A stretch of DNA of 64,000 nt from assembly GCA_026545225.1 (NCBI GenBank), contig CM048848.1, positions 16,171,353-16,235,352 of the forward strand, in the 5' to 3' direction. Both the position numbers and the translations under genes were made by a program. Position 1 is the first letter of the stretch, and every line of letters starts with the position of its first letter. The notes beneath the pieces are model-generated. The model was not told the DNA's origin, made no database searches, and saw nothing but the letters and a program-made list of their open reading frames with translations. Below are positions 7,709-42,733 of this stretch, one piece after another. This stretch comes from Cornus controversa (lineage: Eukaryota > Streptophyta > Magnoliopsida > Cornales > Cornaceae).

Positions 7709-9781
7709 TTACCAGTAATCTCCACAAGAACACGATCCATCCACGAAATGGTGAAATCTACTATTATCCCTGACAATAATCTTTCTCCCAACAACTTTGG
7801 AGATAAACTTAATTGCAGAATGGCAATCCACGCACACCCTTATATTTTTCTTCACTATGATCGGTTTCCCACTTGGCATGCTTATTAGCGCAAATGCAAT
7901 GGCTATCCTCTCGCTATGACGCTGAAGAAGCTTCTCCTTCATACTATCATCCATATCAACTGGAATAGAATCTGTGTAGGGAACATATCCAGCTTCCTTT
8001 ATCTGATCCAGAAGACTATCAAGCTTCTCATAAATTTCTATCTTTCGAGGATGAGACCAATCTTCAGCGCCAAAAACATGGGTTTTGTTACCTACATCGA
8101 CCCAACTATAACCAGGCAGTTTCTGAACATTGCCATCTTTCATCATCTTTCTTATACTCCTTACATCATCCCATTGCCGTTCCTTTGCATAAATATTCGA
8201 AAGCAGAACATGAGCCCCACTGTTCTCAGGCTCAAGCCTCATCAGTTGTTCTGCTGCAAGCTTACCCCTTTCCTTATCACCATGTATCCTGCAAGCCCCA
8301 AGAAAAGAACACCAGCCAGAAGCATTTGGCTCAAGAGGCATGCTATATATAAATTGTTCGGCATCTTTAAGCCTTCCGGCTCGGGCAAGCAAATCAATAA
8401 CGCACGAGTAATGTTCTGATTTAGGTGTCACGCCATAAGTATTTTCCATGGAATAGAAATAATTTAAACCTTCCTCTACCAATCCTGCATGGCTACACCC
8501 ATTTAAAAGACTCACAAACGTTATTTCATTTGGTTTCACTCCACAAAGGATCATCCTTCCAACCATTTTTATTGCATCTTTCCCTAAACCATGCTGAGCA
8601 AACACACTCACCAAGGAATTCCACGCGATCTCAGTTGGGTTTTCAATCTCCTCAAACACTTGGATCGAGTGATCAAGCAACCCACTTTTCCCATACATAT
8701 CAACCAGAACTGAAGAAACAAAAAGGTCTATATCGAAGTTGAATTTAATTATTTGCGCATGAAGTTGATGTCCTTGTTCAAGTGCAGCTTGGTCAGCACA
8801 TGCCTTTATCAAACTAGAGAAAGTGAACTCATTAGGCTCAATGCCCCGCCTCCGCAACTCAACAAAAATACTCAAAGCCTTGTCAATTTGATCTGCCTCG
8901 ACATACCCATCGATCAGTGAAGTATAAGACACTACATTCCTACATTCAGAATCAGATCTGAACACATTTAAAGCACTTAGCATACATCCAGCTTTCGAGT
9001 ACATATTTGTAAGTGCGTTGCCCACTGAAATAGCCGATTCAAATCCTAGCCTCACAACACTTGAATGAATGGACTTTGCAAAACTATAGGCATTCAAGGC
9101 CACACAAGCACTCAAAGTACTACAAAGCACATGCTGATCGATAGTTATAGATTCACAAACCATCTCCTTATAAGCTAACAAAGCTTCTTCAAGATCGCCA
9201 TTTTTCGTATACCCATCAATCATCGCAGTCCATGACACCTCATCCTTACATGGCATCTCCTCAAAGACCTTTCGCGCATCAACCATCACCCCGCACTTTG
9301 AGTACATGTCAGCTAAATTACTACCTACATATAGTTCATAACTGAGCCCACATTTTAAAGCAACACAATGCATTTGTTTCCCCAACTCAATTGACCCAAG
9401 AGAGGCAGAAGCTCGAATAACGCTTGAAAATGCAAACTGGTTCGGAGTTTCACCTGCCATTCGCATTTGACAAAAGGTTTTTACAGCTTCTGAAAATTCC
9501 AAATTCTGTGACAACCCAGAAATCATTGTAGTCCAAGAAACCAGATTTCTCTGGGGCATTGTGTCGAACAGTTTGAGAGCGTCGTATAGTTGGCCACATT
9601 TGACGTACATTGTCAGGAGGTGATTCGCGAGGAAGGTGCATAGTGTGTGGCCGGCGCAGATTAGCTGAGCGTGGATCAGTTTTCCTTTATTTAGCTGATT
9701 CGTTTGGGCGTAAGTTTGAATAACGTGCGCCAAGGTGGTAGACTCCCTGATCACGTGCTCGCTGAAGTAGTGAAATTTCAT
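7709..9781 (-). CDS. DYW-class pentatricopeptide repeat (PPR) protein
   Basis: This intronless 690-codon gene encodes a PLS-type PPR protein. Such proteins act in mitochondria or chloroplasts, bind organelle RNA and usually direct C-to-U editing. PPR repeats run from about residue 40 to 515, with typical phrases such as 'YSKCGVMVDARKVFEEMP' and 'GLVEEGLNYFYSM'. E and E+ segments follow. The C-terminal DYW domain has the deaminase-like zinc motif: HSE at 622-624 and CVDC at 650-653, then the CSCGDYW end (684-690). The reading frame is intact and the last residues are D-Y-W. The ATG at 9781 starts MKFHYFSEH, followed by an Arg-poor N-terminus; I cannot tell which organelle is targeted. Many close family members exist, so I give no gene name. 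Confidence 0.95.
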   Translation of the reverse strand: MKFHYFSEHVIRESTTLAHVIQTYAQTNQLNKGKLIHAQLICAGHTLCTFLANHLLTMYVKCGQLYDALKLFDTMPQRNLVSWTTMISGLSQNLEFSEAVKTFCQMRMAGETPNQFAFSSVIRASASLGSIELGKQMHCVALKCGLSYELYVGSNLADMYSKCGVMVDARKVFEEMPCKDEVSWTAMIDGYTKNGDLEEALLAYKEMVCESITIDQHVLCSTLSACVALNAYSFAKSIHSSVVRLGFESAISVGNALTNMYSKAGCMLSALNVFRSDSECRNVVSYTSLIDGYVEADQIDKALSIFVELRRRGIEPNEFTFSSLIKACADQAALEQGHQLHAQIIKFNFDIDLFVSSVLVDMYGKSGLLDHSIQVFEEIENPTEIAWNSLVSVFAQHGLGKDAIKMVGRMILCGVKPNEITFVSLLNGCSHAGLVEEGLNYFYSMENTYGVTPKSEHYSCVIDLLARAGRLKDAEQFIYSMPLEPNASGWCSFLGACRIHGDKERGKLAAEQLMRLEPENSGAHVLLSNIYAKERQWDDVRSIRKMMKDGNVQKLPGYSWVDVGNKTHVFGAEDWSHPRKIEIYEKLDSLLDQIKEAGYVPYTDSIPVDMDDSMKEKLLQRHSERIAIAFALISMPSGKPIIVKKNIRVCVDCHSAIKFISKVVGRKIIVRDNSRFHHFVDGSCSCGDYW

Positions 9782-10481
9782 AGGAGAGCCGTTGAGTAGA
9801 GCATGAGAAGGGATTTTGCAACTTCACACTAGGGGTACTATTGTAATGAAGAAGAAGATACCACAAAGCCAAACCCTAGCCGAGCCTATAAATCACAAAG
9901 CCGGAAATGACAAATTAGGACAACACAAATAGTTATGCCCTGGAAACGCCGATCCAAATTGACCACCGCATCTATGGTTTTGGCTCAAATGAATGAGTGG
10001 GTAGTCGGACTGGCTGCGAAGAAACAAAACGATGGAATTGCGATGTCATTGGATTGCGTTGTGATTGTGCTGCTAAGAGACTATTATTGCATTGTTGACT
10101 GACTGCAATGGTGTTGCAATTGGGGCTGAGTACTAAAGTCGAAAAGGGTAGATGATTCGAACAGAGATGGACTCCACCAAAAATAGATGCAATTGTGAAC
10201 TGATGCTACGAATGGAGTTAAGAGTGGTTATACTACGATGGTGTACCAAACAGGGAATGGAAGCTTCCCTGTTACGAAAGAATGTTACCAAACAGGGTTG
10301 CACCTACCTGTTGAAACGGAAGAGGGTTGCTTGTCCAAAGGCTGAAAGAGGTTTTGGCCCAAGGAGGAGGAGGGTGAATAAAATTGATAAATGTCAACCA
10401 GTATTTATTTACTTTTTTCAGATTGGTGATTGTCAAGCTCTAAGATTGGTGATAATGTCTTATCAATCAATTTTATCTTCC
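9782..10481. other. PPR upstream region; no other gene seen
   Basis: This should contain the PPR promoter and 5' UTR (minus strand). A telo-box-like AAACCCTAG lies near 9880, a motif common in promoters of plant translation and organelle-biogenesis genes. A small inverted repeat AACAGGGAA/TTCCCTGTT occurs at 10249-10273. The 110-codon plus-strand open stretch at 10152 is not recognisable. Confidence 0.4.
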
Positions 10482-10498
10482 TAAGAGCAACAGCCATG

Positions 10499-10952
10499 GG
10501 ATCGCCAGAGCCCAATCTGGCGATCCAAACACTACTGTGGCCCAACAATAGGTTGGCTAAAATGGTGGGCCAAATGTTTGGTTAGCTAGGTGGTTCGCCG
10601 GATTGGGCGAACCACTTAGCTAACCCTGTTCATATTGGGCCTGCTTTAATGCAGGCCCATATTTTTTAAAAAAAATTTCACTTATCGAAACGACGTCGTT
10701 TCAATAAGTGACTTAAAAAAATAAAACACGCGGCGCCCTGTTAGGGCGCCGCGTGTCCTGCAACGGTCACAAGACCTTTGCACACCCAAACACGCCCTAA
10801 GGCCCTGTTTGGCTGCCCAGAAAAGTCATTTTTGACCGTTTTTTGCTTTTTTTTTTTTTTTTTTTTTTTAAAAAAAAAATTTAAGCTCTGCCAAAGAGCC
10901 GTTAAGGCACTGTTTGGCAAAGCCAAAGAGTGCCTAAAACGGCTCTTTTGGC
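10499..10952. repeat. Ladder of inverted repeats in the left subterminal region
   Basis: Successive hairpin-forming repeats: 10499-10509/10516-10526 (11 of 11, 6-nt loop); 10580-10599/10606-10625 (19 of 20, 6-nt loop); 10636-10644/10651-10659 (9 of 9, 6-nt loop); 10678-10694/10695-10711 (16 of 17, no loop); 10726-10739/10743-10756 (14 of 14, 3-nt loop); and 10890-10911/10929-10952 (22 and 24 nt, differing by two extra bases). They lie between the TIR and the ORF1 promoter. Harbinger elements can bind their transposition proteins subterminally, but I do not know of this arrangement. Confidence 0.9.
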
Positions 10953-11005
10953 TTTAAAATAATATTTTTTTTTTTTTTTTTTACTTTTTTCATCTTTTTT
11001 CATTC

Positions 11006-11014
11006 CTATAAATA
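11006..11014 (+). promoter_or_regulatory. TATA box of the Harbinger ORF1
   Basis: CTATAAATA lies about 120 bp before the ORF1 start codon at 11133, a suitable distance for a plant core promoter with a short leader. Confidence 0.55.
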
Positions 11015-11132
11015 CACCACCCCTTCATTCACTAAATTCACAACCAAAAATTCATATTTTCTCCTCCTAAGTCTAGAATCATTTTTATTTTCTCAATCTT
11101 TAGTTAATTGTATTTTTAGAATATCCATTTTC

Positions 11133-12051
11133 ATGGATCCAACACCACCAAATTTCAACTTCAACCCTTTATCCAATGATGATTTTTTATCATTTGACGG
11201 CTCTAATCAATATTATCGTGGCGATTCTCAATTTCCATCTAATCAATCAGCCGCATTTTATTCGCCGGTATTGCCTCAACCCAGTAATGTCAGATCTTCC
11301 CGAAAGCAACCGGTTCCTCGAATGCCTAATTGGTCCAACGAAGAAGATTTTGCTTTGTGCAATGCGTGGCTGGAAGTTAGCAGTGATTCGGTGATTGGTG
11401 CAGACCAAGCGAAGTCGACATTATGGGAAAAAATTCTCGTCGAATTTCAAGTACAACTTGGTACTCCAACTGCCCGAGGCGAGTGCGGTTTGACAAATCG
11501 TTGGTCCACCATCCAAAAAAAAATTAGCAAATGGTCTGTATGCTTGCTTACAATTGAAAATAATCAGACCAGTGGCTTCAACAATCATGATATGGTAAGT
11601 TAATAATTTTAATTAATCTTTTTACTTGATCGTATTTAATAAGTAATTATTTTAAATAATTTGTTTCTTATTATTGTGTAATTATTTAAAGCAGATCACA
11701 GCGGCTCAACATTTATATAAATCCACTATGAATGAGGACTTTAAACTCCATGCTTGTTGGAACATTTTGAAAGACTCTCCAAAATGTCATGCATATTGTC
11801 TCGATCAAGGAAAAAACAAAGCCACAATTGCCCGCGCAAAGAAGAGGAGTACTGGAATCAACATCAACGAGCATGTTGCTCACTCAAACGCATCAAGTCC
11901 ATTAAGTAATGCAGCGTACGAGGGTGTTCCTTCTGAAGGATCGCCACAGTTTGGCATGAATGAATATTCACCGGGTATTGCTGAATCTCAACCATTAGAG
12001 CGACCAGCAGGACGCAAGGCGGCAAAGCAGAGCCGAAATAAGAAGAAATAG
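11133..12051 (+). CDS. Harbinger ORF1, Myb/SANT-like DNA-binding protein
   Basis: In PIF/Harbinger elements this protein binds element ends and brings in the transposase. Two exons fit: 11133-11594 and 11695-12051, with a GT donor at 11595, an AG acceptor at 11693-11694 and phase 0, giving 272 residues. The Myb/SANT-like (trihelix-type) part is at about residues 66-125, beginning 'NWSNEEDFALCNAWLEV' and including 'LTNRWSTIQKKISKW'. The C-terminus is rich in Lys, Ala and Arg ('AAKQSRNKKK'), a probable nuclear localisation signal. The frame is fully open. Plant databases sometimes label such proteins as glutathione transferase-like through domain fusions; that name would be misleading here. Confidence 0.85.
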
Positions 12052-12096
12052 CCAGAATATGAGACCTCACACTCATCATTCGAGGTCAGTTTCCAC

Positions 12097-12165
12097 ATTC
12101 ATATGAAGATCTTTAAGGGAGGAGTACATAAAAAACCAACATAACTTAAAGATCTTCATATGAAT
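12097..12165. terminator. 21-bp perfect inverted repeat between the convergent Harbinger genes
   Basis: Arms 12097-12117 and 12145-12165 are exact reverse complements with a 27-bp loop. The right arm contains the last transposase codons and its stop (12146-12148). The left arm lies in the ORF1 3' UTR and is a mirror copy of that coding end. Transcripts from either gene would carry the hairpin. It may affect 3' end formation or give rise to small RNA; this is inference. Confidence 0.6.
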
Positions 12166-13468
12166 CACCAATCTGATTCCACATCTGTTCTATCAGATCC
12201 TTCCTCAACTGCGTATTTGTCTCTCTACTGCGGTACTGAGTTTGGCGAGCGTAGATGTGTGCCGCAAAAATATTGGGGTCTAATCTTCGAGTATGAATCG
12301 GAATACTCTCTTCCGGTGGCAGCCAAATTCCAATATTGTCGTGGCGCTCATCTTCAATGATCATGTTGTGAAGGATTATGCACGTTCTCATTATGAGACA
12401 CAAGTCCATCTTCTCCCAATATTTAACTGGTCGTTGCAGTATTGCCCACTTGATTTGCGAGACCCCAAATGCTCGCTCCACATCTTTCCTGCATGCCTCT
12501 TGTTTTTCTGCAAATATTTTTTATTTTGGAGTTCTTGGATTTGGGATGGTCTGTATCAAAGTTGCCCATTTTGGGTATATACCATCAGACAAGTAATACC
12601 CCATGCTATACTGATGCCCATTCACCACATAATTAATCGAATGCATTCTACCACTGACAATACGGTTGAATACGGAGGAATGATCCAACACATTTATATC
12701 ATTGTGTGAACCAGCCATTCCAAAAAATGAATGCCAAATCCACAAATCTTTGGAGGCTACCGCCTCCAATATTAAAGTAGCTTTATGGGTGCGACCCTTG
12801 TGTGTGCCATGCCACGCCACTGGGCAATTCTTCCATTCCCAATGCATACAATCGATAGAACCAAGCATACCTAGGAATCCTCTAGCCTCTCCTTCTTGAA
12901 GGAGTCGTGCGATGTCGGTTTCGTTTGGTTCGCGCATGTACTGCTGCTCATACACAGCAACAACAGCAGTACAAAATGCCTTCAAACAACTTATTGCAGT
13001 AGTCTCACCGATTTTAATAGACTCGTCAAATGAATCGGCTGATCCACCATATGCGAGAATGCGTATTGCAGTTGTCATCTTCTGTATAGAAGACAACCCC
13101 AAACTACCAGAAGCGTCTCTTTTTTGGATGAAGAAATCGTCATAAGATTGAACATCATTCAAGATACGAAGAAATAGTTCTCGACGCATCCTGAAGCGTC
13201 TATGAAATTGCTCAGGTGTATATAAGCAATTCTTATCAAAGTAGTCTTTCATTAGCTGACGGTGGCTTCCTTCTCGGTCACGATGAATAAACCGCCGCCT
13301 CTGAGCTGGTTGAAATACTTGCGATATAATCTCCGGCGTACAACAACTCAGAATTTCTTTGTAGGTAGATACATGATCTTCAAGCAATTTGTCAAGATCT
13401 ATTGATGAGGAGGATGACGAAGAATGTGGAGAATTAGAATCTGACAAAGGTCGTGATGACGAAGCCAT
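12146..13468 (-). pseudogene. PIF/Harbinger DDE transposase broken by one stop codon
   Basis: A single frame of 441 codons runs from ATG at 13468 to the stop at 12146, interrupted only by a TAA at 12521-12523 (codon 316). The catalytic triad fits DD35E: D206 in 'GSIDCMHW', D295 in 'LSDGIYPKW' and E331 in 'DVERAFG', with 35 residues between the last two. The stop falls between D295 and E331, so the truncated protein lacks the third catalytic residue. It is otherwise intact, including the N-terminal 'CTPEQFHRRFRM' region that follows a Ser-rich start. The enzyme would cut and paste the element in the nucleus. Related host genes (HARBI1/ALP1-like) are domesticated copies, but the flanking TIRs and TSD show this one is still a transposon gene. 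Confidence 0.93.
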
Positions 13469-13552
13469 TGAAAGTTCTAAGTTGAAAGAGATGGTAAATG
13501 AATTTTTGGAAGATTGAAAGTAGTGGTAATTTTATAAATGAGTAGATGAGTG

Positions 13553-13560
13553 TTTATATA
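13553..13560 (-). promoter_or_regulatory. TATA box of the Harbinger transposase
   Basis: On the minus strand TATATAAA lies about 85 bp before the transposase ATG at 13468. The repeat array of the next entry ends 12 bp upstream of it. Confidence 0.65.
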
Positions 13561-13571
13561 AGAAAAAAAAT

Positions 13572-13660
13572 ATAGCCGTTGGGAATATAACCGTTGAAAA
13601 TATAGCCGTTGGGAATATAACCGTTGAATATATAGCCGTTGGGAATATAGCCGTTAGTAA
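13572..13660 (-). promoter_or_regulatory. Six 15-bp repeats with MSA-like (MYB3R) sites
   Basis: Six units of 15 bp stand head to tail. On the minus strand each contains AACGG. Units at 13573-13583, 13603-13613 and 13633-13643 read CCCAACGGCTA, an exact match to the plant MSA consensus YCYAACGGYYA. Those at 13588-13598, 13618-13628 and 13648-13658 have one mismatch. MSA elements are bound by three-repeat MYB (MYB3R) proteins and drive G2/M expression of B-type cyclins and KNOLLE. Position just upstream of the TATA box makes a promoter role likely. The array could also be a subterminal binding site for the element's own ORF1 Myb-like protein. Confidence 0.7.
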
Positions 13661-13835
13661 ATAAATAAAAAAAATATTTAATAATTTTAAATTTAAATTT
13701 TTTTTAAAAAAAATTATTAAAATATTATTATTTTTGGTTAGCGGAAATCTGGAGAACCTGTTGTGGAGCCAAAATTTGAAGATCCTGACATGATGATGTG
13801 GCTGGGTAAAATGCTGAGGTGGATAGCTAAAATTC

Positions 13836-13855
13836 AAATTTGGAGATCCAAATTT
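13836..13855. repeat. Inverted repeat at the right Harbinger end
   Basis: AAATTTGGA (13836-13844) and TCCAAATTT (13847-13855) form a perfect 9-bp stem with a 2-nt loop, just inside the right TIR. It is the only clear hairpin at this end, in contrast to the ladder at the left. Confidence 0.7.
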
Positions 13856-13880
13856 AGCCATCCCATAGTGGATGCTCTAA

Positions 13881-15390
13881 GGGGCTTGCTTATGTAAGTT
13901 AAATTCTTCAAAATCACATTTGGAATAAAACAAAATTTATGACTCGGGAATCAAATTTATGATGTTCCTTCCTATTAAACAAGGTCCAGATTGTATCAGA
14001 TGGAAACATGGGAATGCCACTTTTGGAAGCATTACAGACTAAATATGTTAGAAAATACTGTACTAGGCTAAGCTAGTTAGTGTCGAATGGAGGGAGATCA
14101 GCAGCTAGTGTAACTTCTTACTTGGCTATCCAAAATAAAGTGCCTATTCCGTCAGTTGAATATTAATTAGACCACTCGGCAGCAAGTTGATGGGGCTAAC
14201 TTTTACCTTCATAATATGTATGGCACAATAATAATAATGGTTTAGAAATCAACACTTCATGACGGCATGCAGGATTTGGAAGGACTGTTCTGTCTCAATG
14301 CTGGTTTTATGTTGATTGTTTTGTCTGTTAGTGTTGGTATGATTTTTTTAGTTGTATTTGTGTACACAAATTTTGAGTCTGAGAATAAGATTAAAACACT
14401 TGAACAAATATATTAAATATATTAATTTCAAAAAATATGTGTTACAAAATTCTGTAAAGCTTTACAAAAGAAAGACAGATTCCTCTGATTCGTCTCCTTG
14501 ATGATATGAATTCAATGACTGTTGGAGTTTGATCTTGAATTGGATTGAAACTTTGGTGAAGAACATCACGTGGATGATGTATTTGTTGTTGTTCTTCTTC
14601 AGAGTTTAGATGTTTTGGAGTTTTAGATTTTGAATGAAGAATCCTACAGAGTTTCAACTTTTTCTGAGTCTTCTAGTTTTTCCGAATTCAAGGGTTACTG
14701 AAACTTGATCTTAAATCGGATTATTGAGAGTCCTCTTTAAGTGTTTGTTGTTGAAGAAAATCGGAGATAATTTCTGATCGAGGGCTAAAGAAACTTGCTC
14801 TCAAACAGTCTTGTTGATAATTCAGTCTTGTTGATAATTCTTTGAATTTGTTGAATCATGAAAGAAGAACGGCACGACTTTGAATGTGTTTAATGTTTTT
14901 CTTCTTCAAAACTCTGAAGGTTGAATGAATGTATATCTTCAAAGCTTCAAGTGTTGATTGAAAACAAAGTCTAAGAAAAGCTTCAGTAATCTTCTCTTCA
15001 TTTTTCTTTCCCCACCCCTGGACCTTTATTTATAAGCTCACTAGAGTGGTAGATTCGTAACTTTCTTTTCTTCTGATAATTATCCTATAATTATCTTTTA
15101 TGATAATTATCTAATATTTACATAATAATTATCTTTGATAATAATTACATATATATTTAATCAAGTGGGCTTGGACTTCTTAGACAATTTGAATCAATTC
15201 ATGACCCATTTATTTATAGTGAGTCTGGACTTTGAATTATCTAACTCATTGGACCACATTCCAAAGTGGGTCAAATTGAAGATAAGCCAAAATTATATTT
15301 TGAATTCATCATGTAATTTTTTTAATGTCTACAGCATTGTTTCTCGGAGATTGACCTCTTTGATTATCGTTTCGTTGGCTGTTTGTTGAT
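13881..15390. other. Intergenic, partly LTR-like, no gene
   Basis: Bases 14400-15060 have the texture of a decayed LTR or leader read on the minus strand, with a short doubled phrase AGTCTTGTTGATAATTC near 14800-14840. I found no primer site or coding domain. Open stretches here are 84 codons or fewer and unrecognised. Confidence 0.35.
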
Positions 15391-17490: not shown

Positions 17491-18858
17491 TTAGAGGACA
17501 ATTTTAACACACAATCCTTTCCAAAATACACAACTAAAATGTAAGTTATCACTATATTGAGACGGATGAGTGATTACCAGTGGTAAATGAATATGGCTAG
17601 GAAAGCCATGTTGAATAGTGTAGAAGTTGGACTGTTGGTAAAAGCTGAAATCACTTTGTTGGCACATGGCTAAATTTGGTGCTTCATATGTGAAACTAAC
17701 CAAGGGATTTGTTCCAAAACTATCCAACCCCTGTGCAGTGCATGCAAAAGAATAACAATTGTATAAGTACAAGGTTATCAAAGAGAGAGTAAATCTATCA
17801 TGGAAGCATTAGCTTACGGTGAAAGCACCCTTGTGATAGCTTTTTCCATCGATGAAATCATCAGAATACAAAATATAAAAATTAAGTTGTAGGCAATAAA
17901 AATATATTACCTGTGGAACTAAACTTGGAGTTGGGAGTTGAACTGAACAGCATGCCGGTGTCGGGCATGGAATTGAAGAAATAGCGTTTGGAATGGGAGC
18001 ATGTAAATCTTCACTTAATTTCAGAGAACCAGCAAAAATATTGTGTTGAGCTGCATCATCATCAACGCTCTTTGCTAACCGTTCGCTTTCAGAATCGCTT
18101 GCACCACGTTTGCAAATTTGACTCTCATCAGGAGGTTTTATGTTCATCAACTTTTCCACCTCTTGTATCACCTTATCAAATTGTTCTACAGCAAACTGAA
18201 ATGCTTCTCCTGATTTGGCAGCCCTTGTTGATATCTTAATTGCCTTGAGGCACATATCCTTGTAGCGACTTGATGATGCCAACTTAAGGTCTTCTTGGAC
18301 TCTTAAGTCAGCTTCAACAGCTTGAGCAAATGCTAATCTCCTTTGTGACGGTAACATGTGAACTAGATGTGGGCTAACAACATCATGATTGTGATTTGCT
18401 TCAAAATGGATAATGCGATATTTACCATTAGGTTGACGAGATATGGTCATTTGTGCCAAACAACCAGTTCTTGTTTGTTTTCGTGGTTTCTTCACATTAA
18501 CATCGCGTTTGTCTTTCCGCCTAAATCCTTCTTTGAAGCAAGTGAACCTTCTAGATACAACTGCACCGTTTACCTTACTTTTATTTAAAAAATCTTTCCG
18601 AACACTAAAACCAACTACCCTAGCATATCTATTGTAGAACACATATGCATCCTCTTCTGATTCAAACTCCATGCCAACTGATGGCAACTCATCTATTTTC
18701 AAATCCTCTTCTGCAAATAGAGTGGATTGCACTACGTCGACATTGGCACTGTCTGGGCTGTGACTCTCCAGCTCTAACAAAAAGTCCACCTTGCAATGTT
18801 CTGCATCTACATTCACTTTACATGGACTACACAATTCCCCAACATTCTTCCCATCCAT
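17491..18858 (-). CDS. FAR1-type zinc-finger protein without transposase domain
   Basis: FAR1/FHY3-family proteins are transcription factors derived from MULE transposases. Exon 1 is 18858-17911, with a GT donor just below and phase 0. Exon 2 begins at 17730 after the CTGCACAG acceptor and stays in frame, giving about 396 residues if it ends at the stop at 17491. The FAR1 DNA-binding domain occupies residues 62-160 with zinc ligands C107, C133, H156 and H158 ('NHNH'). After it comes 'RYKDMCLKAIKISTRAAKS', which in full-length FRS proteins lies after the SWIM finger. The MULE transposase core and SWIM domains are absent. The C-terminal end is uncertain; more exons could follow. Arabidopsis has short FAR1-only proteins, so this can be a real gene. 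Confidence 0.8.
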
Positions 18859-41560: not shown

Positions 41561-42200
41561 CATTTAAGGTTAGTGTTTGAATTTCCCGCCCAAAAAATTT
41601 CATCATCTAACGGTCAAAAATGCTTAAAAAACTCATCTGACGATTCAAAATATCTATGCCTATCTACGGTCTAAAATTACTCTCCCTATCTTCAATCAAC
41701 AGTCACGATTTACTCCCACCTAAATTCAAATTTAAACTTTCACCTACCCTCACTCTATCTCTATATCACTCTCCCACCCATTCATTTCTTTTATTTGTTT
41801 TCTCTCTCCTCTCATCTCACTCACTACTTCCACCACCATCAACTTCATCAAATAACCATATTATATTAGTTTGTTTTATATATCTATTTATTGGCAGACC
41901 GAAGGAAAGGGAGAAGAAGGGCTGAGTTCTGATTAATAGATGGTTTATGGTTTTGAAACTGTTTCTTTCACATGTAACTCTTGCTCTGCATTGTTTTTCA
42001 TTAATAGAATTCTTCATTGAAGGATTACATTTGTTTAGTTCTGGTTTTCTTAGATTCTCAAGCTAGGGAGCTTTTATATTATATACCTTTTGGCTCAAGT
42101 TCTGGTTTTCAGTTTTTGTTATTCTCAATTTTTAAGCATTCATCAAATCTATTGGAATAATTTGTCATTCCAAATTATTCCTAGATTTTGTTGCAGTGTC
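41340..42200. other. Intergenic with (TA)n tract
   Basis: A TA microsatellite lies at about 41526-41559. Small Ser/Leu-rich open stretches around it are unrecognised. Confidence 0.4.
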
Positions 42201-42205
42201 GGTAA

Positions 42206-42733
42206 TTGTCAAGGTTGCAATGTAGAATTTTTGGTGGGATGGATAGATTTGTGAAATTTTTGAGCCGATCCACTCCACCACCATCAACCTTCATCTGCCA
42301 CCATGACCGGGCACAACTACTGCCAAACAGCCGCACCACCACCTTCCACCGCAAGCTCCAGCCAATCCACCACCATATAGCAGCCACCACACCTCCTACC
42401 ATGGCTGCCACCAACCGAAAGACCCACTTCTGCCAAGCTCATCTACACCACCATTTCTTCGACGCTAAGCCACCACAACAGAGCTCCGGTCATCAACCAC
42501 CTTCAACTCCACCACAGTCCACCCCACCCGTTGTCACTACGACCTTCACCATGGCAGCCGAGCTCAACAACCAGCACCATCAACCTTCACAAACACCACC
42601 GGAGCAAACCCACTTCAGCCACCAGCAACCTCCACCCACAGCCTACTCCACTTCAGCCGACCCCAAGCTGCCCTTTTGGTCTCCATCTTCACCCACTGCC
42701 GTCAACATCTCCTCCATCATCATAACCACTTGA
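42206..42733 (+). CDS. Hypothetical Pro/His/Thr/Ser-rich ORF
   Basis: A 175-codon open frame with strong CCA/CAC repetition. There is no domain; the protein would be a low-complexity chain of Pro, His, Thr and Ser. An AG acceptor-like sequence (TTGTTGCAG) stands near 42190. It may be a spurious frame in a C-rich transposon leader. Base composition differs sharply from the AT-rich neighbours. Confidence 0.25.
   Translation: MSRLQCRIFGGMDRFVKFLSRSTPPPSTFICHHDRAQLLPNSRTTTFHRKLQPIHHHIAATTPPTMAATNRKTHFCQAHLHHHFFDAKPPQQSSGHQPPSTPPQSTPPVVTTTFTMAAELNNQHHQPSQTPPEQTHFSHQQPPPTAYSTSADPKLPFWSPSSPTAVNISSIIITT

Follow-up and report, generated by a model that had tools for sequence, protein, structure and literature searches.

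Whether a transposon can place its transposase under the control of the host cell cycle is the question raised by the locus described here, and to our knowledge it is an open question how plant cut-and-paste transposons time transposase production to that cycle. The window, by which is meant the whole 64-kb stretch of DNA that was analysed, is plant DNA of 36% G+C with a PPR-DYW gene and a Plant_tran transposase, and directly before the promoter TATA box of the latter lies a tandem array of AACGG cores which resembles the MSA elements of plant genes. MSA elements are bound by MYB3R proteins and confer G2/M expression in plants. The array may accordingly be read as a host-responsive promoter part, as a binding site for other host factors or for proteins of the transposon itself, or as a product of DNA slippage.

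The element and its two genes

The array is located in the right arm of a transposon (Table 1) which displays two features of the PIF/Harbinger superfamily, namely a 3-bp TWA duplication (TAA on both sides) adjoining matching TIRs (GAGCAACAGCCATGGGAT versus GAGCATCCACTATGGGAT, 14 of 18 positions alike) and a DDE transposase of the Plant_tran/HARBI1 kind (PF04827, E 2.2e-63). The transposase has 4539 relatives in the protein collection at E<=1e-3, and the closest among the 120 matches listed (of 4539) is from Cornus florida with 72% identity. A single in-frame stop at 12523-12521, after residue 315 and between the HNDIN and DVERAF motifs, means that the present copy as it stands does not encode a full transposase. 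The second gene, ORF1, has two exons which are each open in their own frame, and it is convergent with the transposase gene, which leaves one promoter in each arm of the element. The presence of a Plant_tran transposase, a separate ORF1, TIRs and a TAA duplication is shared with Ping/Pong-type elements, whereas the convergence of the two genes, with one promoter per arm, and possibly the AACGG array at the transposase promoter would set the present element apart.

The CpG o/e of the whole element is 0.87 versus 0.49 for the window, a difference suggesting that the insertion is young or has been little methylated. Searches with the element (blastn and tblastn) found no second copy inside the 64-kb window, the right TIR has a single match in the window at <=3 mismatches, and Rfam gave no match over 10400-13900. 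Where the convergent genes meet, an inverted repeat (12086-12176; 32-bp arms, 84% paired, 27-bp loop) has its left arm between the two stop codons, and the transposase frame ends within its right arm (12145-12176). An effect of this repeat on the 3' ends of the two transcripts is conceivable. Four further inverted repeats able to form hairpins are found in the left arm of the element (10485-11132), at 10580-10625, 10678-10711, 10726-10756 and 10893-10948, together with a 28-bp direct repeat (10786-10813 and 10891-10918). Among the 25 of 41 repeat pairs listed, just one, which is A+T-rich (13658-13740), lies wholly inside the right arm, besides a short palindrome. The element starts some 0.7 kb upstream of the start codon of the PPR-DYW gene (7709-9781, minus strand), and other ORFs in the window encode a FAR1 DNA-binding domain (17809-18858) and a retroelement-type integrase core domain (rve; 217-759).

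Table 1. Features of the element, with positions in the window, strand and basis of each assignment
Feature	Positions	Strand	Basis
PIF/Harbinger (Pong-like) element, 3393 bp	10485..13877	.	imperfect TIRs and flanking TAA
Target-site duplication TAA, left	10482..10484	.	read at element end
Target-site duplication TAA, right	13878..13880	.	read at element end
Four further AACGG cores, left arm	10762..10942	10762 +, 10836 -, 10899 -, 10938 +	core scan
TATA box TATAAAT of ORF1 promoter (predicted)	11007..11013	+	sequence
ORF1 exon 1, sub-threshold Myb/SANT-like (Myb_DNA-bind_4) match	11133..11594	+	open frame, Pfam
ORF1 intron, GT..AG	11595..11694	+	read from sequence
ORF1 exon 2, NAM-associated C-terminal domain (PF14303)	11695..12051	+	Pfam, E 4.1e-10
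Transposase, Plant_tran (PF04827), 440 codons before terminal stop	12146..13468	-	ORF and Pfam match
TATA box TATATAAA of transposase promoter (predicted)	13553..13560	-	sequence
MSA-like array, six head-to-tail 15-bp units with AACGG	13569..13658	-	core scan, TRF

The AACGG array before the transposase gene

An initial sequence-only reading had described six 15-bp repeats that share an invariant AACGG when read in the sense of the transposase, and this description was confirmed in every detail that was checked. CCGTT is found on the plus strand at 13576, 13591, 13606, 13621, 13636 and 13651, a spacing of exactly 15 bp, and AACGG thus lies on the transposase sense (minus) strand in all six units. 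In the order of transcription the units read ACTAACGGCTATATT, CCCAACGGCTATATA, TTCAACGGTTATATT, CCCAACGGCTATATT, TTCAACGGTTATATT and CCCAACGGCTATATT; units of the type CCC-AACGG-CTATAT alternate with TTC-AACGG-TTATAT, with one ACT-AACGG-CTATATT unit ahead of them. The consensus YCYAACGGYYA is matched exactly by three of the units, as the same reading had it, and with one mismatch by the other three, which deviate at position 1 or 2, and the YYA flank is present throughout (CTA or TTA in 6/6). TRF describes the array with a period of 15 (5.8 copies, 80% matches) and with a better fit at a period of 30 (3.2 copies, 92%).

Between TATATAAA and the last 11-bp site, whose end is at 13573, there are 12 bp. 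The AACGG cores precede the TATA box by 16-91 bp, and 85 bp lie between the end of the TATA box and the transposase ATG (13468). Both the 12-bp and the 85-bp distance given earlier were thereby recovered, and the attribution to a Harbinger transposase promoter is supported by the Plant_tran gene, the TIRs, the TAA duplication and the position of the array beside the TATA box.

Chance, duplication and selection

The array holds more AACGG than chance would produce. In 100 first-order Markov resamples of the 64-kb window, exact MSA matches occur with a mean of 0.11 per 64 kb (largest value 2) versus four in the window, three of them inside the array, and the density of AACGG reaches at most four per 200 bp (in 2 of the 100 resamples) versus six at the array. 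The sole exact match elsewhere in the window (TCTAACGGTCA, 41606-41616) lies 16 bp after TTTCCCGC (41582-41589), which by its consensus is an E2F-type site; one ORF downstream of it was tested (42206-42733) and has no Pfam match.

Tandem duplication multiplies one seed, and therefore the six sites do not represent six independent events. The array could be a passive minisatellite in which slippage amplified a 30-bp stretch that contained AACGG by accident and which has no binding function. This would account for the likeness of 45-nt copies 30 bp apart (up to 98%), and tandem arrays are frequent in the window, where merging 76 TRF rows by hand gives 50 of them. The sparing of the core is also compatible with slippage, as 5 of the 15 columns of the unit are variable and the chance that five such columns placed at random would miss AACGG is 8.4%; in addition TATAT is just as invariant, and the CpG o/e of the element suggests little decay, so that invariance comes cheaply. 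Given the near-identical 30-bp duplicates and this chance value, the invariance of AACGG is not evidence of selection and was dropped as a signal of it, as was the survival of the six CpGs of the array in view of the CpG o/e of the whole element. A passive origin does not lead one to expect, however, that AACGG would be present in just one of the other 49 arrays (one core per 212-bp unit), that the array would sit directly at the TATA box, or that a second cluster of AACGG would be found at the other promoter of the element, and we regard it as distinctly unlikely that slippage is the whole explanation. The informative point is that an array of short units matches an established cis-element and does so at a fitting distance from a TATA box.

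AACGG cores at the predicted ORF1 promoter

The ORF1 TATA box is preceded, at distances of 69-245 bp, by the four cores of the left arm, two of which fall in the arms of a single inverted repeat (10893-10948). Within the window AACGG is most densely clustered at the two promoter regions of the element, with the left cluster in second place, and the ten cores of the element are all confined to its arms, where they are 222-453 bp away from the nearer end. With the AACGG rate outside the element as Poisson background, the probability of >=4 cores in the 300 bp that precede the predicted ORF1 TSS is about 4.5e-5, or about 1e-3 if the inverted-repeat pair is counted once (>=3 cores), and the corresponding values for the whole 648-bp left arm are 8e-4 and 8e-3. 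By enrichment in the left arm AACGG ranks 10 of 512 pentamers (uncorrected P 0.0016), and of the four sites only that at 10762 is within one mismatch of MSA. The left cluster is statistically modest, and we take it as suggestive. A search for strict E2F sites found none in either arm of the element and one loose match at 10574.

A possible host MYB3R-responsive promoter

Work on SCL28 genes places MSA sites near the TSS with variable number and orientation; in the AtSCL28 promoter the cores at -34, -73 and -101 point forward and that at -54 is reversed, and the NtSCL28 promoter has cores at -191 and -220 (PMC10905365). According to a second study, mutation of the four AACGG cores of AtSCL28 renders promoter activity essentially undetectable (PMC8964727). 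The placement of these cores and the effect of their mutation make a MYB3R reading of the array reasonable, since YCYAACGGYYA is likewise found here with its core in several copies near the TSS, which is itself predicted. To judge from the sequence, the array would differ from MSA sites of the SCL28 type in being a regular 15-bp tandem array inside a transposon with half of its units off the full consensus.

The likeness in core and placement makes a host MYB3R-responsive proximal transposase promoter the first choice and the best single reading, which we nevertheless hold tentatively and put somewhat below an even chance. In its favour count the three exact MSA matches combined with AACGG in all six units, the cluster before ORF1, which in density of AACGG is surpassed in the window by the array alone, and the absence of the array from the other arm, which fits a part of a promoter rather than a structure that is needed at both ends. 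Against it count that the array was read in one copy with near-identical duplicate units, that half of the units are off consensus, that neither arm has a strict E2F site, and that the left cluster has a rank of 10 in 512, one MSA-like site in four and a density of four cores per 200 bp which 2 of 100 resamples also reach. The orientation of the array is not diagnostic because that of MSA sites varies among MYB3R targets.

It is proposed that the array may regulate the transposase promoter from close upstream, through three-repeat MYB proteins of the host (MYB3R) which would occupy its six AACGG cores. Their binding would raise transposase transcription in G2/M of dividing cells, while repressor-type MYB3Rs would keep it low elsewhere. 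Cycling cells would accordingly make transposase once their DNA has been replicated, a timing that may benefit the element. To a weaker degree the ORF1 promoter may respond to MYB3R as well. Activity in dividing tissue would fit with rice Ping, a related element: a paper whose title describes its expression as specific to early embryogenesis reports that mPing activity is highest in 3-5-day embryos (PMC4055405). The phrase 'cell cycle' is absent from the main texts of PMC4055405, PMC5543537 and PMC6327408.

Other proteins that may bind the array

The AACGG core also serves other MYBs and fits general MYB recognition sites. The array could thus be a promoter part for another host MYB, for example an R2R3-MYB in stress, epidermis or reproduction, instead of the cell-cycle MYB3Rs, and its geometry relative to the TATA box would be identical. 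The YYA flank in 6/6 units is that of MSA, although duplication may explain its retention. A reading by another host MYB appears quite improbable.

A further explanation is that the cores bind the element's own proteins, ORF1 and transposase, in a transposition complex at the subterminal arms, perhaps with autoregulation of the promoter. It would agree with the restriction of all ten cores to the arms, with none in 11133-13468, although the empty centre is little surprise as about 1.5 cores would be expected there at the rate outside the element. Clusters of (A)AACGG in both subterminal arms (six and four cores here) are also a likeness to Ac/Ds of maize, but Ac is a hAT element and not a Harbinger, and in the present element one arm carries a regular array beside a TATA box and the other four scattered cores. 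Work on Ac describes subterminal AAACGG repeats at both ends which bind Ac transposase and of which three copies are required, whereas some Ds1 elements transpose without the hexamers (PMC3260210). Within the Harbinger superfamily, a Myb-like protein was reported to bind subterminal regions and to recruit the transposase (PMC4055405), while mPing and mPong, according to another study, share no specific internal sequence that promotes transposition (PMC9921582).

The sequence-only reading had called ORF1 Myb-like, a stronger term than the profile matches bear out. Exon 1 has a match to the trihelix-type Myb_DNA-bind_4 profile at E 0.024, below the cut-off, and the match is not listed with the joined ORF1 protein; a classical Myb repeat was not found in ORF1 by profile search at E<=0.1. 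A single-sequence structure model of ORF1 (mean pLDDT 68) has no Myb or trihelix protein among the 50 entries listed of 528 chains aligned, nor does Foldseek find one among the 50 listed of 144 matches, with no match at E<=0.001, and this comparison bears on the type of domain in neither direction. When solved structures were searched by sequence, a single weak match was obtained (E 0.35). The state of the ORF1 match and the confinement of the 15-bp array to one arm both speak against binding by the element's own proteins, which we consider unlikely; the left-arm sites and the Ac precedent keep a role in a transposition complex under consideration. If ORF1 or transposase did bind the array, it would be a candidate for a specific subterminal binding site of a plant Harbinger protein.

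Searches for relatives and precedents

In viral contigs the transposase search gave one pattern-matching stretch, which was not confirmed, and a profile of 25 transposase sequences gave 5 stretches in viral and 12 in prokaryote contigs, none confirmed; plasmids and phages contained no match to the transposase. The array pattern had no match in viral contigs, and a looser version of it returned, from prokaryote contigs, 14 bacterial records (L001-L014; G+C 0.38-0.73) which were set aside on their titles and G+C. Since its 15-bp unit holds a whole number of codons, the array is translatable, and a 109-aa frame across it gave six candidates in the protein collection, none of them at E<=10. A constructed profile of five-residue repeats gave no candidate in the same collection, and N-terminal repeats of this five-residue type are absent from the 120 transposase relatives listed (of 4539). 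These blanks say little because gene models seldom cover promoters. In the open-licence literature, outside which most subscription journals lie, no report of an AACGG/AACGGCTA array in a transposon or Harbinger promoter was found among the papers listed, and among open-licence work on MYB3R and transposase there was no title on a transposon promoter.

Implications for PIF/Harbinger transposons

A short promoter that bears six candidate sites for MYB3R would open the timing of transposase production to direct tests in synchronized tobacco BY-2 cells. A rather doubtful extension of the MYB3R reading is that it represents a PIF/Harbinger lineage with both genes under the G2/M MYB3R programme of the host, in which the array would act more strongly on the transposase and a weaker set of sites on ORF1, so that the transposition machinery would be made only in cycling cells after replication. 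If true, excision would be repairable from the sister chromatid and copies could multiply. A family with such a promoter would offer a mechanism for transposon activity that is confined to embryos, callus and meristems.
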